Of a stretch of DNA of 64,000 bases, positions 44,120 to 50,776 are shown piece by piece; position 1 is the first letter of the stretch, and the number at the start of each line of letters is the position of its first letter. Origin of the DNA: Frigidibacter oleivorans (GTDB lineage Bacteria > Pseudomonadota > Alphaproteobacteria > Rhodobacterales > Rhodobacteraceae); the NCBI RefSeq assembly GCF_003993775.1, contig NZ_RJRZ01000011.1, positions 1 to 64,000 on the forward strand, written 5' to 3'. The notes below the pieces were generated by a model that saw only the letters and a program-made list of their open reading frames with translations, searched no databases and was not told the DNA's origin. The position numbers and the translations under genes are program-made.

Positions 44120-45250
44120 TCAGCCCACCGCCGTGCGTTTCAGCTTCTTCGGGTCGTCGAAGGGCAGTTCATGCGCCTTTGCCGCAAAGGTTTCCGCCCC
44201 CTTCACCGTCAGCGGCGTTCCCGCCACGGCGCAGTCGGGCGCGAGCCGGGCGATCGCCATCGACTGGCCGGTGATCGCGGAATAGCTGGGGCAGGTCACC
44301 ACCCCCACCCGCCGGTCGCCCGCCCAGACCTCGTCCCCCAGACCGCAGGCATGGTCGGCCTCCAGCAGCAGGCCGAAGATGCGGAACCGCTCTTTCCCCT
44401 TCAGGCGGAAATGTTCCTCGGCACCCTTGAAGGCGGTCTTCCCCGGGCTGACGGTGAAGGTCAGCCCCAGTTCCCACAGGCTGTCGCCCGGGCCTTCGTC
44501 CGCAAAGGGATACATCTGCGAATTGTCGTAAGGGTAGAACAGCAGGTAGCTTTCCACCCGCAGCATGTCGAGCACCGAGAAGCAGCAGGGCACGATGCCC
44601 ATTTCTGCCCCCTCGGACAGGATCGTGTCCCAGATCAGCGGCGCGTCCTGCCCGCGGCAGAAGATCTCGTAGCCGCGTTCGCCGGTATAGCCGGTGCGCG
44701 AGATCGTCACCGGCGCGCCGAAGAGCGTGGCCGGCATGTGGTGGAAGTATTTCAGGTCGCGGATACCCGGCACATGGCGGGCAAGGTAATCCACCGCCAC
44801 CGGCCCCTGCAGCGACAGGTCGTGCAGGTCGTCGTCGAACAGCACCGCGCAGTTGCGGCCCATCGCGGCCTTCACCACCTCCTCATGCGCGGACCCGGAG
44901 CCGTGCACCAGCATCCAGGCATTCGGGCCGGTCCGGTAGATGATGCAGTCGTCGGTGAAGAAGCCCTTTTCGTTCAGCAGGCAGGCATAGACGGACCGGC
45001 CCGGCGTCACCTTCGACATGTCGCGCGTGGTAATCCAGTCCAGCACGGCGATGGCATGCGGCCCGACGAGGTGCATCTTCTTCAGGCCCGACACGTCCAT
45101 CAGCCCGGCCTTGGTGCGGATGGCGGTGTGTTCCTCCTGGATGTCCTTGGCATAGGTCCAGGCGGTGCCCATCCCGCTCCAGTCCTCCAGCGCCGATCCA
45201 AGCGCGCGATGCCTGTCCGCAAGGGCCGAGAAACGCCAGCTCAGCGCCAT
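44120..45250 (-). CDS. dmmD: Tetrahydrofolate-dependent aminomethyltransferase-like protein DmmD (GcvT family)
   Basis: DmmD is a GcvT-like protein expected to trap the formaldehyde released from dimethylamine as methylene-tetrahydrofolate. Visible family features are RTKAGLMDVSGLKKMHLVGPHA, DWITTRDMSKVTPGRSVYACLLNEKG, SLQGPVAVDYLA, ISRTGYTGERGYEIFC and CCFSVLDMLRVESYLLFY with the C-terminal RRVGVVTCPSYSAITGQSMAIARL. It has 376 residues from ATG 45250, which follows AGGGAG; the GTG two codons upstream is less likely. It is the first gene of dmmDABC-tmm and has its own promoter region. Confidence 0.9.
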   Translation of the reverse strand: MALSWRFSALADRHRALGSALEDWSGMGTAWTYAKDIQEEHTAIRTKAGLMDVSGLKKMHLVGPHAIAVLDWITTRDMSKVTPGRSVYACLLNEKGFFTDDCIIYRTGPNAWMLVHGSGSAHEEVVKAAMGRNCAVLFDDDLHDLSLQGPVAVDYLARHVPGIRDLKYFHHMPATLFGAPVTISRTGYTGERGYEIFCRGQDAPLIWDTILSEGAEMGIVPCCFSVLDMLRVESYLLFYPYDNSQMYPFADEGPGDSLWELGLTFTVSPGKTAFKGAEEHFRLKGKERFRIFGLLLEADHACGLGDEVWAGDRRVGVVTCPSYSAITGQSMAIARLAPDCAVAGTPLTVKGAETFAAKAHELPFDDPKKLKRTAVG

Positions 45251-45293
45251 GATCACTCCCTGATGTTTTATTTTCTGGAATAGTTATTTCTTG

Positions 45294-45357
45294 ATGATAG
45301 GCAGCGATTGCCGCGTCGCAAGAAGAATCTCGCAGTTGCGGCAGAATTCTGCGGCAG
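45294..45357 (-). promoter_or_regulatory. Candidate promoter and operator of dmmDABC-tmm
   Basis: On the minus strand TTGCGA (45316-45321) and TATCAT (45294-45299) are 16 bases apart. Directly upstream, TGCGGCAG occurs twice (45337-45344 and 45350-45357) around the palindrome CAGAATTCTG (45342-45351). The palindrome resembles the CAGGAATTTT found upstream of tdm and amtB. The 187 bases between dmmD and the regulator hold no gene. Confidence 0.55.
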
Positions 45358-45437: not shown

Positions 45438-46091
45438 TCAGCGCCGGTCGCCGTTGGCCTGCGGATAGCTGATGATCGACAGATAGCGCGCCGGCAGGCT
45501 GACCAGCTGTTCCGGCCCGTGCGGCGCATCCGCGTCGAAGAACAGGCTGTCGCCGGGCCGCATGTGGAACAGCTGGTCGGCATGGCGATAGACCACCTCG
45601 CCCTCCAGCATGTAGAGGAACTCCATGCCCTCGTGCTGGAAGGTGGGGAAGATATCGGCATTGTCCGACAGGGTGATCAGGTAGGGTTCGACCACCACGC
45701 CCGAGGTGTTGTTGTCGATATGGCCCAGCAGGTTGTACTGGTGTCCGGCCCGGGTGCCGCGCCGTTCCAGCTCCACCCCCTCGCCCGCCCGGACGAAGAC
45801 CGCGTTGCGCGGCTCCTCATAGCCGCGGAAGAAGGCGGTCAGCGGCACCCCGAGCCCGCGCGACAGCGCCTGCAGGGTCGAGAGCGAGGGCGAGATGTTG
45901 CCGTTCTCGATCTTCGACAGCATCCCCAGCGACAGGCCGGTGGCATTGGCCAGATCGGTGACGGTGATGCCCAGCTTCTTGCGGAAGGTGCGCACCTCGT
46001 GCCCGATGGCCAGTTCCAGCCGGTTCTCGCGCGGCTCGCGCAGCGCGTGCGGGTCCTGGGTCAGCGGTACGGGGCGCTTGGCATCGTCCAA
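45438..46091 (-). CDS. XRE-family transcriptional regulator with cupin domain
   Basis: The 217-residue protein has an N-terminal helix-turn-helix (EVRTFRKKLGITVTDLANATGLSLGMLSKIENGNISPSLSTL) and a C-terminal cupin (FQHEGMEFLYMLEGEVVYRHADQLFHMRPGDSLFFDADAPHGPEQL). Such proteins usually sense a small metabolite. The only usable start is TTG at 46091, preceded by GGAAGGA. The nearby ATG is out of frame. It lies between tdm and dmmD and is the obvious candidate regulator of the methylamine genes. A 33-base inverted repeat just upstream suggests autoregulation. Confidence 0.92.
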   Translation of the reverse strand: MDDAKRPVPLTQDPHALREPRENRLELAIGHEVRTFRKKLGITVTDLANATGLSLGMLSKIENGNISPSLSTLQALSRGLGVPLTAFFRGYEEPRNAVFVRAGEGVELERRGTRAGHQYNLLGHIDNNTSGVVVEPYLITLSDNADIFPTFQHEGMEFLYMLEGEVVYRHADQLFHMRPGDSLFFDADAPHGPEQLVSLPARYLSIISYPQANGDRR

Positions 46092-46195: not shown

Positions 46196-48544
46196 TCAGG
46201 CCAGCCCCCGCGGCCGCAGCTTCTGCGGATCGTATTGCGCCAGTCCCGTGACCTCGGCCGGGATCCGCTTCATCTGCCCGTCCAGCCGCCCGACCTCCAG
46301 CCGCGTGCCTTGCGCGGCATGGACCGGCTCCAGCCGCGCGAGCGCGATCTGCCGGCCCAGCACCGGCGAATGGGTGGCCGAGGTGACCACCCCCACCTGC
46401 GCCCGGCCCAGAAACACGCCGTCGCCATGCGCCACCGCATCGCGCCCCTGCAGCGCCAGTCCCGCCAGCACCTGCCGCGGATGGGCCTTGCGCGGCTCGA
46501 TCGCCGCGCGGCCGCAGAAGTCGTCGGCCTTGCCCTTCAGCGCCACGGCGAAACCCAGCCCCGCCTCGAACGGGTCGGTCCGGTCGGTGAATTCGTGGCC
46601 CGCGAAGACCAGCCCCGCCTCGATCCGCAGCATGTCGAGCGCGGCAAGGCCCATGGGGATCAGCCCGTGCGGCGCACCCGCCGCCATCACCGCCTCCAGC
46701 ACCCGGCCCGCATCCTTGGGGTCGCAGAAGACCTCATAGCCCAGTTCGCCGGTATAGCCGGTGCGCGACACCACCACCGGAATCCCCTCGAACCCGCCGA
46801 TCCGGCCCACGGTGAAGCGGAACCAGTCCAGATCGGCCAGCGGCACGCGGTTCGGCGCCGTCCAGACCAGATCGCGCAGGATCTCGCGCGAGGCCGGACC
46901 CTGCACCGCGATGTTGTGCAGCCGGTCGGTCGAGGACCGGACCCAGGCCCGGTAGCCCATCCGCCCGGCCTGTTCGCGCAGCCACAGCCCGCTGGCATCG
47001 TCGCCGCCGATCCAGCGCCAGGCCATCTCGCCCATGCGGAACAGGGTGCCGTCATCGACCATGCCGCCATGGTCGTAGCACATGGCGGAATAGACCACCT
47101 GCCCCACCGACAGTTTCGACACGTCGCGGGTCAGGCACCATTGCAGCAGCGCCCCGGCATCCGGCCCGGTCACCTCGTATTTGCGCAGCGCCGACAGGTC
47201 GATCACCGCCGCCGCCTCGCGGCAGGCGCGGTATTCGGCGATCCGGCCCGCCCGCGTCTCCTGCGGCAGCCAGAAGCCGCGATACTCGACATGCTCGGTC
47301 ACATGCGGGGCGAGCGCGGCATGAAAGCCGGTCTCCCTGGTCAGTTCGGGTTCGGCATCGGGGGTCATGCGCCAGGCCACGGCTCTCTGGAAGGTCTCGC
47401 GCCCGGAATAGGTGCGAATGTGGATGTCGGTCAGGTCCCAGCCATTGGCGGGGTCGATGTCGTCGGGGCAGGAGGACGAGACGCAGACCAGATCGGTCAG
47501 CGCCCGCATCAGCACATAATCGCCGGGCCGCGACCACGGTTCGTCGAAATAGAGCTGGTTCAGGTGATCGACGCCGGTGTTGTAGAAGAAATTCAGCGCC
47601 TCCCACCCCTTGCGGGCAGCGACGCCGAACGGGTTCAGCGCGGCGTTGAAATTGTCGCTGCAATTCGGATGGCCCGGATAGCCCTGATCCTCGTAATAGC
47701 GGGCGTTGCAGGCGGTGGCGAAGGCGTCGTGCCGGCCGACCGTGTCCTGCACGATTTCCACCAGCGGCTGGAAATCGCGGTCGAAGGCCTTCGACGGCAG
47801 GCCCGGCGCCGGATAGCTGCGCCCGGTCAGGGTGCGGGTGATGGTGGCGTCCAGCGCATGTTCGATGCCGCGGTCGAGCTTGCGCGCGTCGAAGCACTGG
47901 AAATCGCTGCATTGCCGACCGTCGACGTCGATCACCTGGATCCACTCGCCCGCCCGCACGGTGAAGGCGCGGGCGCTGGCCGGGCGGATGCGCAGATCGG
48001 TCAGCGGCTCGGCCAGCGGGTCGGGCAGCCGGTCGGCATAGGCGCGCCGGCCCGGGGCGCGGGTGACGAACAGGTGCAGGGGCGTCGCCGTCTCGGCACT
48101 GTCGGGGGCTGCGGGCGGTCGCGGCGCCACGGCGATCAGCAGCCCCGGCTCTGCCGCCGTCATTCGGACCCGGTCGCCCGCGCGGCTGTCCGGCCCGAAC
48201 AGCCGCAGCGCCCGGCCCTGCGCCGGGTCCGCGCCCGCCCGCAGCAGCGCCGCGGCAAGGCGGCGGCCCGATCCGTCCGCCGCCGCCAGCAGCGCCTGCA
48301 GCGCGCCCGCCGGTCCGTCGCCGGCAAGGCCGAGCGCCCCGGTCCGGAACCGCCCGTCCCGGGTGACGAAGGACAGCTCGCACACCTGCCCGCCCTCGAT
48401 ATCCACCAGTTCCAGCGCCTCGCCTGCCGCCAGCCGCAGCGTCACCGATCCCCCCGCCGGCACGCGGTGACGTTCCACCCCCGGCGGCAGCGCGGGCTGC
48501 CCGGGCCGGCGCAACAGGCTGGCGGCGGGGGGCGACAGGAGCAT
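46196..48544 (-). CDS. tdm: Trimethylamine N-oxide demethylase (TMAO aldolase) Tdm
   Basis: Tdm splits TMAO into dimethylamine and formaldehyde, and its folate domain captures the formaldehyde. The 782-residue protein has a DUF1989-type zinc domain around residues 170-400 (RAGEWIQVIDVDGRQCSDFQCFDARK, ATACNARYYEDQ, NCSDNFNAAL, CVSSSCPDDIDPANGW), with zinc-ligand candidates Cys279, Cys354 and Cys359. A GcvT domain follows (about 415-770): VIDLSALRKYEVTGPDAGALLQ, SRTGYTGELGYEVFC and QVGVVTSATHSPVLG. The first 165 residues look like a degenerate copy of the DUF1989 start. Length matches published Tdm of about 780. It lies between the Amt region and the regulator. Confidence 0.92.
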   Translation of the reverse strand: MLLSPPAASLLRRPGQPALPPGVERHRVPAGGSVTLRLAAGEALELVDIEGGQVCELSFVTRDGRFRTGALGLAGDGPAGALQALLAAADGSGRRLAAALLRAGADPAQGRALRLFGPDSRAGDRVRMTAAEPGLLIAVAPRPPAAPDSAETATPLHLFVTRAPGRRAYADRLPDPLAEPLTDLRIRPASARAFTVRAGEWIQVIDVDGRQCSDFQCFDARKLDRGIEHALDATITRTLTGRSYPAPGLPSKAFDRDFQPLVEIVQDTVGRHDAFATACNARYYEDQGYPGHPNCSDNFNAALNPFGVAARKGWEALNFFYNTGVDHLNQLYFDEPWSRPGDYVLMRALTDLVCVSSSCPDDIDPANGWDLTDIHIRTYSGRETFQRAVAWRMTPDAEPELTRETGFHAALAPHVTEHVEYRGFWLPQETRAGRIAEYRACREAAAVIDLSALRKYEVTGPDAGALLQWCLTRDVSKLSVGQVVYSAMCYDHGGMVDDGTLFRMGEMAWRWIGGDDASGLWLREQAGRMGYRAWVRSSTDRLHNIAVQGPASREILRDLVWTAPNRVPLADLDWFRFTVGRIGGFEGIPVVVSRTGYTGELGYEVFCDPKDAGRVLEAVMAAGAPHGLIPMGLAALDMLRIEAGLVFAGHEFTDRTDPFEAGLGFAVALKGKADDFCGRAAIEPRKAHPRQVLAGLALQGRDAVAHGDGVFLGRAQVGVVTSATHSPVLGRQIALARLEPVHAAQGTRLEVGRLDGQMKRIPAEVTGLAQYDPQKLRPRGLA

Positions 48545-48628
48545 GGGGGCGGCGGACCTCGCGGAACGGCGGTTCGGAGCGATCTTCCGCCGCGACCGGC
48601 GCGGCTGTAAAGTCGGAATATTGCCCTA

Positions 48629-48638
48629 CAGGAATTTT
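48629..48638 (-). promoter_or_regulatory. CAGGAATTTT motif upstream of tdm
   Basis: This 10-mer (plus-strand reading) is 85-94 bases upstream of the tdm start and is identical to 50331-50340 upstream of amtB. It lies in an AT-rich stretch (48606-48650), where TAAAAT (minus strand, 48634-48639) is a possible -10. The remaining 181 bases between tdm and the 55-aa gene hold a hairpin only. Confidence 0.5.
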
Positions 48639-48678
48639 AGTTTATTAGCAGGACGCAACAGCCGATTCGAACAGCAAC

Positions 48679-48702
48679 GGGCCGCGCCCTGCGACGCGGC
48701 CC
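48679..48702 (-). terminator. Hairpin downstream of the amtB/55-aa unit, possible weak terminator
   Basis: GGGCCGCG-N8-CGCGGCCC is a perfect 8-bp stem, 24 bases after the stop of the 55-aa gene. Read on the minus strand it is followed by GTTGCTGTTC rather than a pure T-run, so termination may be partial. Confidence 0.45.
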
Positions 48703-48725
48703 GCCGGACTGCCCTTCGGGACGGC

Positions 48726-48893
48726 TCAGCCGTGCTTCTTCGCCATATGCATCTCGTGCGCGGCCATGCGGAAGATCGTGTAGACGCAGGCGGCGACGCC
48801 GGCGAGGATCAGGAAGCCCACGACGGCGGGCTTGTCGGCGAAGGTGTAATAGACCTCGGCGCCGTCCCAGCTGGTGATCGGTGCGGTGTTCAT
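48726..48893 (-). CDS. Small membrane protein (55 aa) paired with the Amt transporter
   Basis: The frame MNTAPITSWDGAEVYYTFADKPAVVGFLILAGVAACVYTIF ends in a charged HEMHMAKKHG tail and has one clear membrane helix (about residues 23-41). GGAGAGCAC precedes the ATG. It follows amtB by 22 bases in the same orientation, so it is almost certainly co-transcribed. I recall similar small proteins beside Amt genes in Rhodobacterales but know no assigned function. A regulatory or stabilising subunit of the transporter is a plausible inference. Confidence 0.75.
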   Translation of the reverse strand: MNTAPITSWDGAEVYYTFADKPAVVGFLILAGVAACVYTIFRMAAHEMHMAKKHG

Positions 48894-48915
48894 CTGTGCT
48901 CTCCTGGACTGGGGA

Positions 48916-50250
48916 TCATTCCGCCGGCGAGACCGGCGACAGGTCGAAGGCCGGCACCGCCGCCTCGGGATAGGCCTTGGCCGGGATCTCGACCTTGTCG
49001 AGCCCCGCCAGTTCCACACCCTGGCTCACGCGCAGCAGGCCCACGGATTTCAGCACGAAGGACAGCACCCAACCCGGCACGAAGCCCAGCAGGACGAAGA
49101 CCGCCGCGCTCATCAGCTGGCCGGTGAAGCTGATCGCCGGACCCTCGACGTTCAGGTAGCCCGAGGCCAGCAGCCCCGCCATCACCAGCCCGTAGACGCC
49201 CGAACAGCCATGCACGGCCACCGCGCCCACCGCGTCGTCGATCTTCATCCGGACGACGATGAAATCGTTGATCTTCGGGATGATCACCCCGCCGATGAAC
49301 GAGACGAGGAAGGCCAGACCCGGATAGTAGAGGTCCAGCGCCGGCGCCGAGGAGATGACCCCGATCAGCGCGCCGGACATCATCCAGAACGGATCGCGCG
49401 TCATCAGATAGGCGCCGATCATGCCGCCCGCCACGCCCATCAGCGTGTTGAAGGCAAAGGCCGACAGCGTGGTGGGGGTGTTGTAGATCGTCAGCCACCC
49501 GTCGGGCGTGTAGATGATGCAGCCGCCGAGGAAGCCGAAGAAGCCCATCACGATCAGCATCAGCCCGATCAGCGACATCGGCATGTTGTGGCCCGGGATC
49601 TCGTTCAGCGTGCCGTCCGGGTTGTAGCGGCCCATCCGCGGGCCGAGGTTCATCAATACGCCGAGCGTGAAGAAGCCGGCGATGGTGTGGACGCAGCCCG
49701 CCGCGCCCACGTCATGCAGGCCCCAGACCGAGGTCAGCCAGCCCGACGGATGCCAGCCCCAGGCGGCGCCGAGGATCCAGACGACCGAACCCAGCACGAT
49801 GGCGAGGATGGTGAAGCCCGACATGCGGATCCGCTCGATGACCGAGCCGGACATGATCGAGGCGGTGGTGGCGGCAAACAGGGTAAAGGCCGCATAGAAG
49901 ATGCCCGAGGCCTGGTCTGCGAGGTTCGGCCCCATGTTTGCCGACCAGGGCAGCGCGCCCGGCGCGGCGGCGGGGATGATCCCGCCGGGGAAGGCGTTGT
50001 AGATCCACCAGCCGACATAATAGAAGGACGGCACGAGGAAGGCGAAGGCCAGCAGGTTCTTGATGCCCGAGGCCAGCGCGTTCTTGGACCGCGACGCGCC
50101 CATTTCATAGGCGAGGAAGCCGGCGTGGATCGCCAGCATCAGGGCGGTGCACCACCAGTAGAATATCTCGATATTGAGCGTGTTGACCGAGGCGATCGCC
50201 GCCTCCAGCGCGGCGATCTGGGCCTCGAGGTCGGGCGTGGTCTCTTCCAT
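48916..50250 (-). CDS. amt: Ammonium transporter (Amt family)
   Basis: The 444-residue protein has eleven or so membrane helices. It keeps the pore residues Asp180 and the twin histidines His188 (DVGAAGCVH) and His347 (KIDDAVGAVAVHG). It differs from typical AmtB by an acidic amphipathic N-terminus of about 25 residues (MEETTPDLEAQIAALEAAIASVNTL) with no obvious signal peptide, and by GNN-type loops such as NPDGTLNEIPGHNMPMSLIGL. No glnK is adjacent; a 55-aa membrane protein follows instead. Association with tdm and dmm genes suggests uptake or recapture of ammonium, or perhaps of a methylated amine. Confidence 0.9.
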   Translation of the reverse strand: MEETTPDLEAQIAALEAAIASVNTLNIEIFYWWCTALMLAIHAGFLAYEMGASRSKNALASGIKNLLAFAFLVPSFYYVGWWIYNAFPGGIIPAAAPGALPWSANMGPNLADQASGIFYAAFTLFAATTASIMSGSVIERIRMSGFTILAIVLGSVVWILGAAWGWHPSGWLTSVWGLHDVGAAGCVHTIAGFFTLGVLMNLGPRMGRYNPDGTLNEIPGHNMPMSLIGLMLIVMGFFGFLGGCIIYTPDGWLTIYNTPTTLSAFAFNTLMGVAGGMIGAYLMTRDPFWMMSGALIGVISSAPALDLYYPGLAFLVSFIGGVIIPKINDFIVVRMKIDDAVGAVAVHGCSGVYGLVMAGLLASGYLNVEGPAISFTGQLMSAAVFVLLGFVPGWVLSFVLKSVGLLRVSQGVELAGLDKVEIPAKAYPEAAVPAFDLSPVSPAE

Positions 50251-50593
50251 GGGTTTCCCTTCGCTGTTGGACAGTCAGTCGTTTTTCGACTCTTTGGAAG
50301 CGTTTCCTCAAGATAATATTCTATAATCGGCAGGAATTTTTGCAACGCAGCATTTTCCGTTGCAGCATCGGGGGTTGCAACTGCGGCAAGCTTCCTGCCG
50401 GGGCGGCACGGTTGCGATCCGTCGCAGGTGCGCGCCCCGCAGCTATGTTCTAGCCGCCTTGCAAACCGCGCATTCCTTGCGTCCAGCGCATGACGGGCAT
50501 GGCGCTTTCTGCGTTGCAGAAAGAGACCGGCAACCCCATTTTCCGCTCACGGGCAGAACGACGCCGCCCGACCGAACCCAAGGAAGCCCGACC
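50251..50593. promoter_or_regulatory. 343-base divergent region between amt and the 60-aa gene
   Basis: No gene is seen. For amt (minus strand), TTGCAA (50340-50345) and TAGAAT (50318-50323) are 16 bases apart. CAGGAATTTT (50331-50340) sits in the spacer. TTGCA repeats occur at 50340, 50360 and 50375. On the other side, the inverted repeat CTTTCTGC-GTT-GCAGAAAG (50505-50523) lies 71 bases before the 60-aa gene. Confidence 0.55.
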
Positions 50594-50776
50594 ATGACGA
50601 CCCTCACGCTCGACCACGCGCCCCGCCGCAGCCCGCTTGCCGCGATCGGCGAGATCTTCCGCATCTTCGAGGCCGCCGTCAGCGCCTCTGCCGACATCCA
50701 GGCACATCGCCGCCCCGACGACGCGACGCTGCGCGCGCTCGGCATCGAACCCGCCGCCTTCCCGGCCCTGCACTGA
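50594..50776 (+). CDS. Unrecognised small protein, 60 aa
   Basis: The frame MTTLTLDHAPRRSPLAAIGEIFRIFEAAVSASADIQAHRRPDDATLRALGIEPAAFPALH is preceded by AAGGAAG at good spacing and followed by a strong bidirectional terminator, so expression is likely. An amphipathic helix (residues 14-35) and an RALGIEPAAF tail recall the small Arg-containing DUF1127-like proteins common in Rhodobacterales, but the match is weak. No membrane segment is clear. Confidence 0.65.
   Translation: MTTLTLDHAPRRSPLAAIGEIFRIFEAAVSASADIQAHRRPDDATLRALGIEPAAFPALH

Follow-up and report, generated by a model that had tools for sequence, protein, structure and literature searches.

Short repeats in the methylamine promoters of Frigidibacter oleivorans as probable worn pieces of a longer, conserved operator of an XRE/cupin regulator

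Nitrogen supply and climate-relevant amines both depend on how methylamine breakdown is controlled, a control that is only beginning to be described, in 2026 for one AraC regulator of one marine bacterium. This regulator, TmaR (SPO1584) of Ruegeria pomeroyi, binds the tmm, tdm, dmm, gmaS-mgs, mgd and tmaR promoters (PMC13390433); the main text of that article gives no motif and mentions no XRE regulator. In the methylamine clusters of the Rhodobacteraceae, XRE, amt and glxA genes repeatedly co-occur with tdm, dmm and mgs genes (PMC7574528), and in the passages on these clusters the XRE gene is annotated but given no function, target or site. Our literature search found no described regulator of the XRE/cupin family for methylamine genes. 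The XRE plus cupin layout is shared by PuuR, the enterobacterial putrescine repressor; the gamma-glutamylation pathway under its control includes a glutamine-synthetase-like enzyme.

The locus studied here lies in a stretch of 64,000 nucleotides of the F. oleivorans genome, the whole of which is referred to as the window. Its minus strand carries dmmD (44120-45250; GcvT-like, dimethylamine monooxygenase operon, Pfam GCV_T, adjoined by DmmA), an XRE/cupin regulator gene (45438-46091), tdm (46196-48544; trimethylamine N-oxide demethylase, above the cut-off of NCBIfam NF053776) and amt (48916-50250; ammonium/methylammonium transporter family, Pfam PF00909). The regulator, the putative binder of the sites described below, belongs to the XRE/cupin class by its domains, an N-terminal HTH_3 (53 bits, 34-86) and a C-terminal Cupin_2 (46.7 bits, 140-206), both above the Pfam cut-off. 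Its best NCBIfam relative is PuuR (NF007408), at 66.1 bits against a cut-off of 211 and thus outside PuuR membership. The segment MLSKIENG of its recognition-helix region is 98-100% conserved in 56 orthologues. The mgsABC-gmaS genes of the same genome are located on another contig (C35), with no XRE gene beside them.

The original prediction drew attention to a 10-mer, CAGGAATTTT, upstream of tdm and amt, and its placement is borne out. Two plus-strand copies precede these genes, one at 48629-48638, which is 85-94 bases from the tdm start (48544), and one at 50331-50340, which is 81-90 bases from the amt start (50250). As tdm and amt lie on the minus strand, the 10-mer reads AAAATTCCTG in the gene sense, in one orientation at both. 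It is not frequent genome-wide either, with three exact copies in the 38 contigs (4,048,906 bases), two of them in the window, and none of the reversed control pattern. The third copy (C32:346070-346079, or 1501-1510 of locus L003) lies in the other orientation, about 90 bases before a gene for the binding protein of an ABC peptide transporter, and is joined to TTGACA; tried as an operator, it was judged a chance occurrence (box permutation p 0.21, no profile match). A 10-mer shared by two AT-rich promoters is weak evidence by itself, and the question was therefore put to related genomes. By our own estimate, a common 10-mer would arise by chance in a few per cent of pairs of such promoters of about 150 bp. 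This favours a reading in which the 10-mers resemble each other by chance and the element consists mainly of core promoter sequence (A-tract, -35, extended -10) at nitrogen genes that are strongly expressed.

Conservation of a motif in related genomes was found, in an extended form. The mgsA promoters of XRE-bearing genera have in common a double box of about 40 bp, TTTgCCTnnnAGGAAAaaaaGTTTCCTGnCAGTTGA. Expectation maximization (EM) on the XRE promoters of other genera yielded TTTCCtnaTAGTgaAA, and a separate run on 26 mgsA promoters, those not directly behind an XRE gene, yielded TTTGCCTnnnAGGAAAAAAAGTTTCCTGnCAGTTGA, a longer element with a -10 of the GGTGCTAGC type behind it. This mgsA element can be read as a palindromic box that occurs twice, at a distance of about 20 bases. 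The palindromic box was found as TTTccCtnnaGggAAA; symmetry was imposed in one single-box scoring, not in the EM on XRE promoters. The predicted operator would thus be a 16-bp palindromic box, roughly TTTnCCTnnAGGnAAA, occurring either alone or in pairs with a spacing of about 20 bases. The second mgs box touches the -35, with A-rich sequence upstream, as expected if the element were core promoter.

The consensus TTTCCYTNTAGTGAAA, with three mismatches allowed, gave 13 matches in the F. oleivorans genome, none in the cluster and no more than its reversed control, and for AAATTCCTGTAG with one mismatch the control was as frequent as the pattern across the genus. In sister species, the tdm promoters had a weak single-box score, the signal being carried by the double-box register. 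A first matrix, from XRE promoters alone, was rejected: it placed dmmD at rank 1, amt at rank 2 and tdm only 23rd, and was AT-driven. Matrices based on mgs promoters were therefore used and permutation controls added. The matrices used to scan the window were learned from mgsA promoters only, and included no sequence of the genus itself and no tdm promoter; column-permuted matrices, which keep base composition, served as controls (400 trials for the window sites).

With these matrices, a tdm site at 48617-48656 on the minus strand (GCGTCCTGCTAATAAACTAAAATTCCTGTAGGGCAATATT in the gene sense), which contains the tdm copy of the 10-mer, ranked first at each of the widths 22, 30 and 40 among about 128,000 window positions. 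Its score at width 40 was 18.4; a dmmD site came second at 8.8, and the best site elsewhere reached 2.1. None of the 400 permuted matrices did as well for tdm at widths 30 and 40, and 1% did at width 22; the dmmD result at width 40 was attained by 1%. A sequence profile of the mgsA double-box promoters (R1) was also searched against whole genomes. In the F. oleivorans genome (G000) its one match at E<=10 was the tdm site, with an E of 0.27 genome-wide and 0.0041 for the window, and in genome G004 the single match was again the tdm promoter. Since tdm ranked first and was also the only genome-wide profile match, the 10-mer, an A-tract plus the left arm of one box, is best seen as part of the putative operator, not as the operator. 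R1 gave no match at the mgsA promoter of F. oleivorans in the whole-genome search; this promoter carries TTTCCTAATACGAAAA at C35:28532-28547 (permutation p 0.0055). Downstream of the tdm site in the gene sense, TTTACA (48606-48611, minus strand) is probably the -35, as suggested by CAGTAT/CACTAT 17 bases downstream in loci L007-L009. Seven tdm promoters from two orders have AAA.T....TTC and an invariant CTTTAC in common.

At dmmD, the original prediction had proposed CAGAATTCTG (45342-45351, plus strand, 92-101 bases before the ATG) as a variant site. This candidate is unrelated to the motif revealed by comparison: 0.79 chance matches with up to one mismatch are expected in the window, and it has no motif match. 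Instead, 45263-45302 on the minus strand (GCCTATCATCAAGAAATAACTATTCCAGAAAATAAAACAT), directly after a probable -10, TATCAT, is where the dmmD sites of L008 and L009 fall in alignment, which argues that this position and not CAGAATTCTG is the candidate dmmD operator.

The amt region (50302-50341, plus strand) comprises two putative eroded half-sites, a AATTCCTG arm corresponding to the 10-mer and a TGAGGAAA arm. It ranked eighth at width 40 with the mgsA-derived matrices, and neither it nor the XRE promoter of the window was significant alone in the permutation controls. Within the genus, the amt promoters of four genomes show no variation in AATTCC or in TGAGGAAA. The amt site is a conserved but eroded putative half-site, and the amt copy of the 10-mer is degenerate. 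The 10-mer had also been placed between the -35 and -10 hexamers of amt; it is indeed bracketed by the promoter-like pair TTGCAA-16-TAGAAT (50318-50345, minus strand; a consensus match only) but overlaps the first hexamer by one base. A perfect inverted repeat, CTTTCTGCGTTGCAGAAAG, to which chance matches within three mismatches are rare, is present at 50505-50523, between amt and a small plus-strand ORF at 50594, and is possibly a site of another regulator. A second inverted repeat, TTGCAACG...CGTTGCAG, is found nearby, at about 50342-50366.

Taken across the window, the predicted regulatory element is real: chance does not account for the tdm and dmmD sites, and the amt site is conserved. 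The identification of the 10-mer with the XRE/cupin operator stands insofar as both copies fall in conserved operator-like elements, and requires correction insofar as the 10-mer is only part of a paired box of about 16 bp. The two 10-mers are likely to be partly eroded pieces of operators of one regulon, with the XRE/cupin protein as the most likely binder.

We examined the distribution of the XRE gene in 198 genomes sampled from the family. It was present in 55, mgsA in 58 and both in 51 (Fisher p about 1e-34), and XRE often immediately precedes mgsABC-gmaS or has dmm, tdm and amt genes as neighbours. In the sister-species loci L006, L081 and L112, no dmmD adjoins XRE, which heads mgsABC-gmaS, and a GlxA-like AraC gene is found directly upstream. 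An R1 match at E<=0.0014 was obtained in 30 family genomes, all of which have XRE and show their best match upstream of mgsA; the profile had been built from 24 of these and not from the other six (G143, G117, G034, G145, G198 and G039). The double box was seen at mgsA, by profile and by eye, in none of the seven mgsA-bearing genomes that lack XRE, a comparison that rests on seven negatives, nearly all mgsA-bearing genomes having XRE. The sites might instead belong to a general regulator of nitrogen or stress responses with no relation to the cluster, amt and mgs being nitrogen genes. Many sites would be expected from such a regulator, whereas strong R1 matches are confined to methylamine promoters and XRE-bearing genomes, and we consider this explanation highly improbable.

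The element was also found in a second order. In four Hyphomicrobiales-type loci (L007, L008, L009 and L014), XRE occurs together with amt and tdm; dmmD is present as well in L008 and L009. In three Hyphomicrobiales loci, nine of the 11 XRE, amt, tdm and dmmD promoters fell within the top four sites per 18-kb locus of the mgsA-derived matrices; permuted matrices averaged 2.5-2.7 with a maximum of 7, and none of 300 did as well. The dmmD site is conserved in these Hyphomicrobiales. Permuted matrices, although they keep composition, thus fail to reproduce the tdm, dmmD and Hyphomicrobiales results, and the placement of the box relative to -35/-10 varies between genes. Both observations speak against an element that is mainly core promoter, which we regard as improbable. 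The XRE proteins of the four loci are 75-77% identical to that of the window, against at most 72% in the other Rhodobacteraceae genera sampled, and dmmD is 78-82% identical in L008 and L009. With these XRE and dmmD identities, horizontal transfer of the methylamine cluster is likely. In Acidimicrobiia and relatives (L029, L032, L034, L036, L040-L043, L045-L049, L063 and L075), tdm is preceded at a distance of about 4 kb by an XRE gene of roughly 40% identity, and the locus also contains an amt-like gene. The XRE-tdm-amt linkage may therefore extend to another phylum.

The main rival to the XRE protein as binder is an AraC/GlxA-family activator equivalent to TmaR. Tandem sites about 20 bases apart with the second at the -35 are the classic AraC layout, and the two boxes, the second touching the -35, fit it. 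TmaR binds the equivalent promoters in R. pomeroyi (PMC13390433). Among genomes with both XRE and mgsA, an R1 match is also more common where a TmaR-like AraC gene is present (20 of 23 versus 10 of 28, p 2e-4), an association behind which phylogeny or GC content could stand. Ten family genomes with strong R1 matches nevertheless lack a close AraC homologue. F. oleivorans itself has its best R1 match genome-wide at tdm without a close TmaR homologue: a query with a putative TmaR orthologue from a related genus, not SPO1584 itself, gave at best 31% identity (E 7.6e-46) and nothing at 1e-60, and no gene was scored as an orthologue. The box is moreover palindromic, as for an XRE dimer. We consider the AraC activator unlikely, though less so than the other two alternatives. 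For the XRE/cupin protein as owner of the sites, the element tracks its gene across genomes and two orders, and we infer with good confidence that this protein binds the boxes.

In related genomes, the predicted operator is found not only in the XRE gene's own promoter but also in those of mgsABC-gmaS, tdm, amt and dmmD. The XRE/cupin protein (45438-46091) would bind the box as a dimer, and pairs of dimers would occupy double boxes. By analogy with PuuR and putrescine, its cupin domain would sense a methylamine-derived ligand, probably a product of methylamine metabolism. The position of the dmmD site directly downstream of the -10 suggests repression, as does that of the XRE sites of relatives, over the -10 or beside the start codon (L008). 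At tdm, where the site is upstream of the -35, and at mgs, where it is over the -35, activation is as possible as repression. The short repeats in these promoters are worn pieces of a longer putative binding site, common to many bacteria, through which the XRE/cupin protein most likely controls methylamine use as a nitrogen source.

Compared with PuuR, the gmaS gene of the present system parallels the glutamine-synthetase-like enzyme of the PuuR pathway. The pathways differ, and the XRE protein of the window scores far below the 211-bit cut-off. TmaR and TmoR of R. pomeroyi are regulators in the same pathway (PMC13390433). TmaR belongs to the AraC family, unlike the XRE/cupin protein, and has no close homologue in F. 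oleivorans. The XRE protein is a second, widely co-inherited candidate regulator with a defined putative operator and a list of target promoters, which makes its regulon testable and predictable from sequence. On balance, we think it reasonably likely that this uncharacterised XRE/cupin protein governs, as a conserved and specific regulator, the entire regulon for methylated amines (mgs-gmaS, tdm, dmm and amt) in Rhodobacterales and Hyphomicrobiales, using one operator in both orders, and that the Acidimicrobiia XRE may extend it to another phylum. It would act with TmaR where the latter is present and alone elsewhere.
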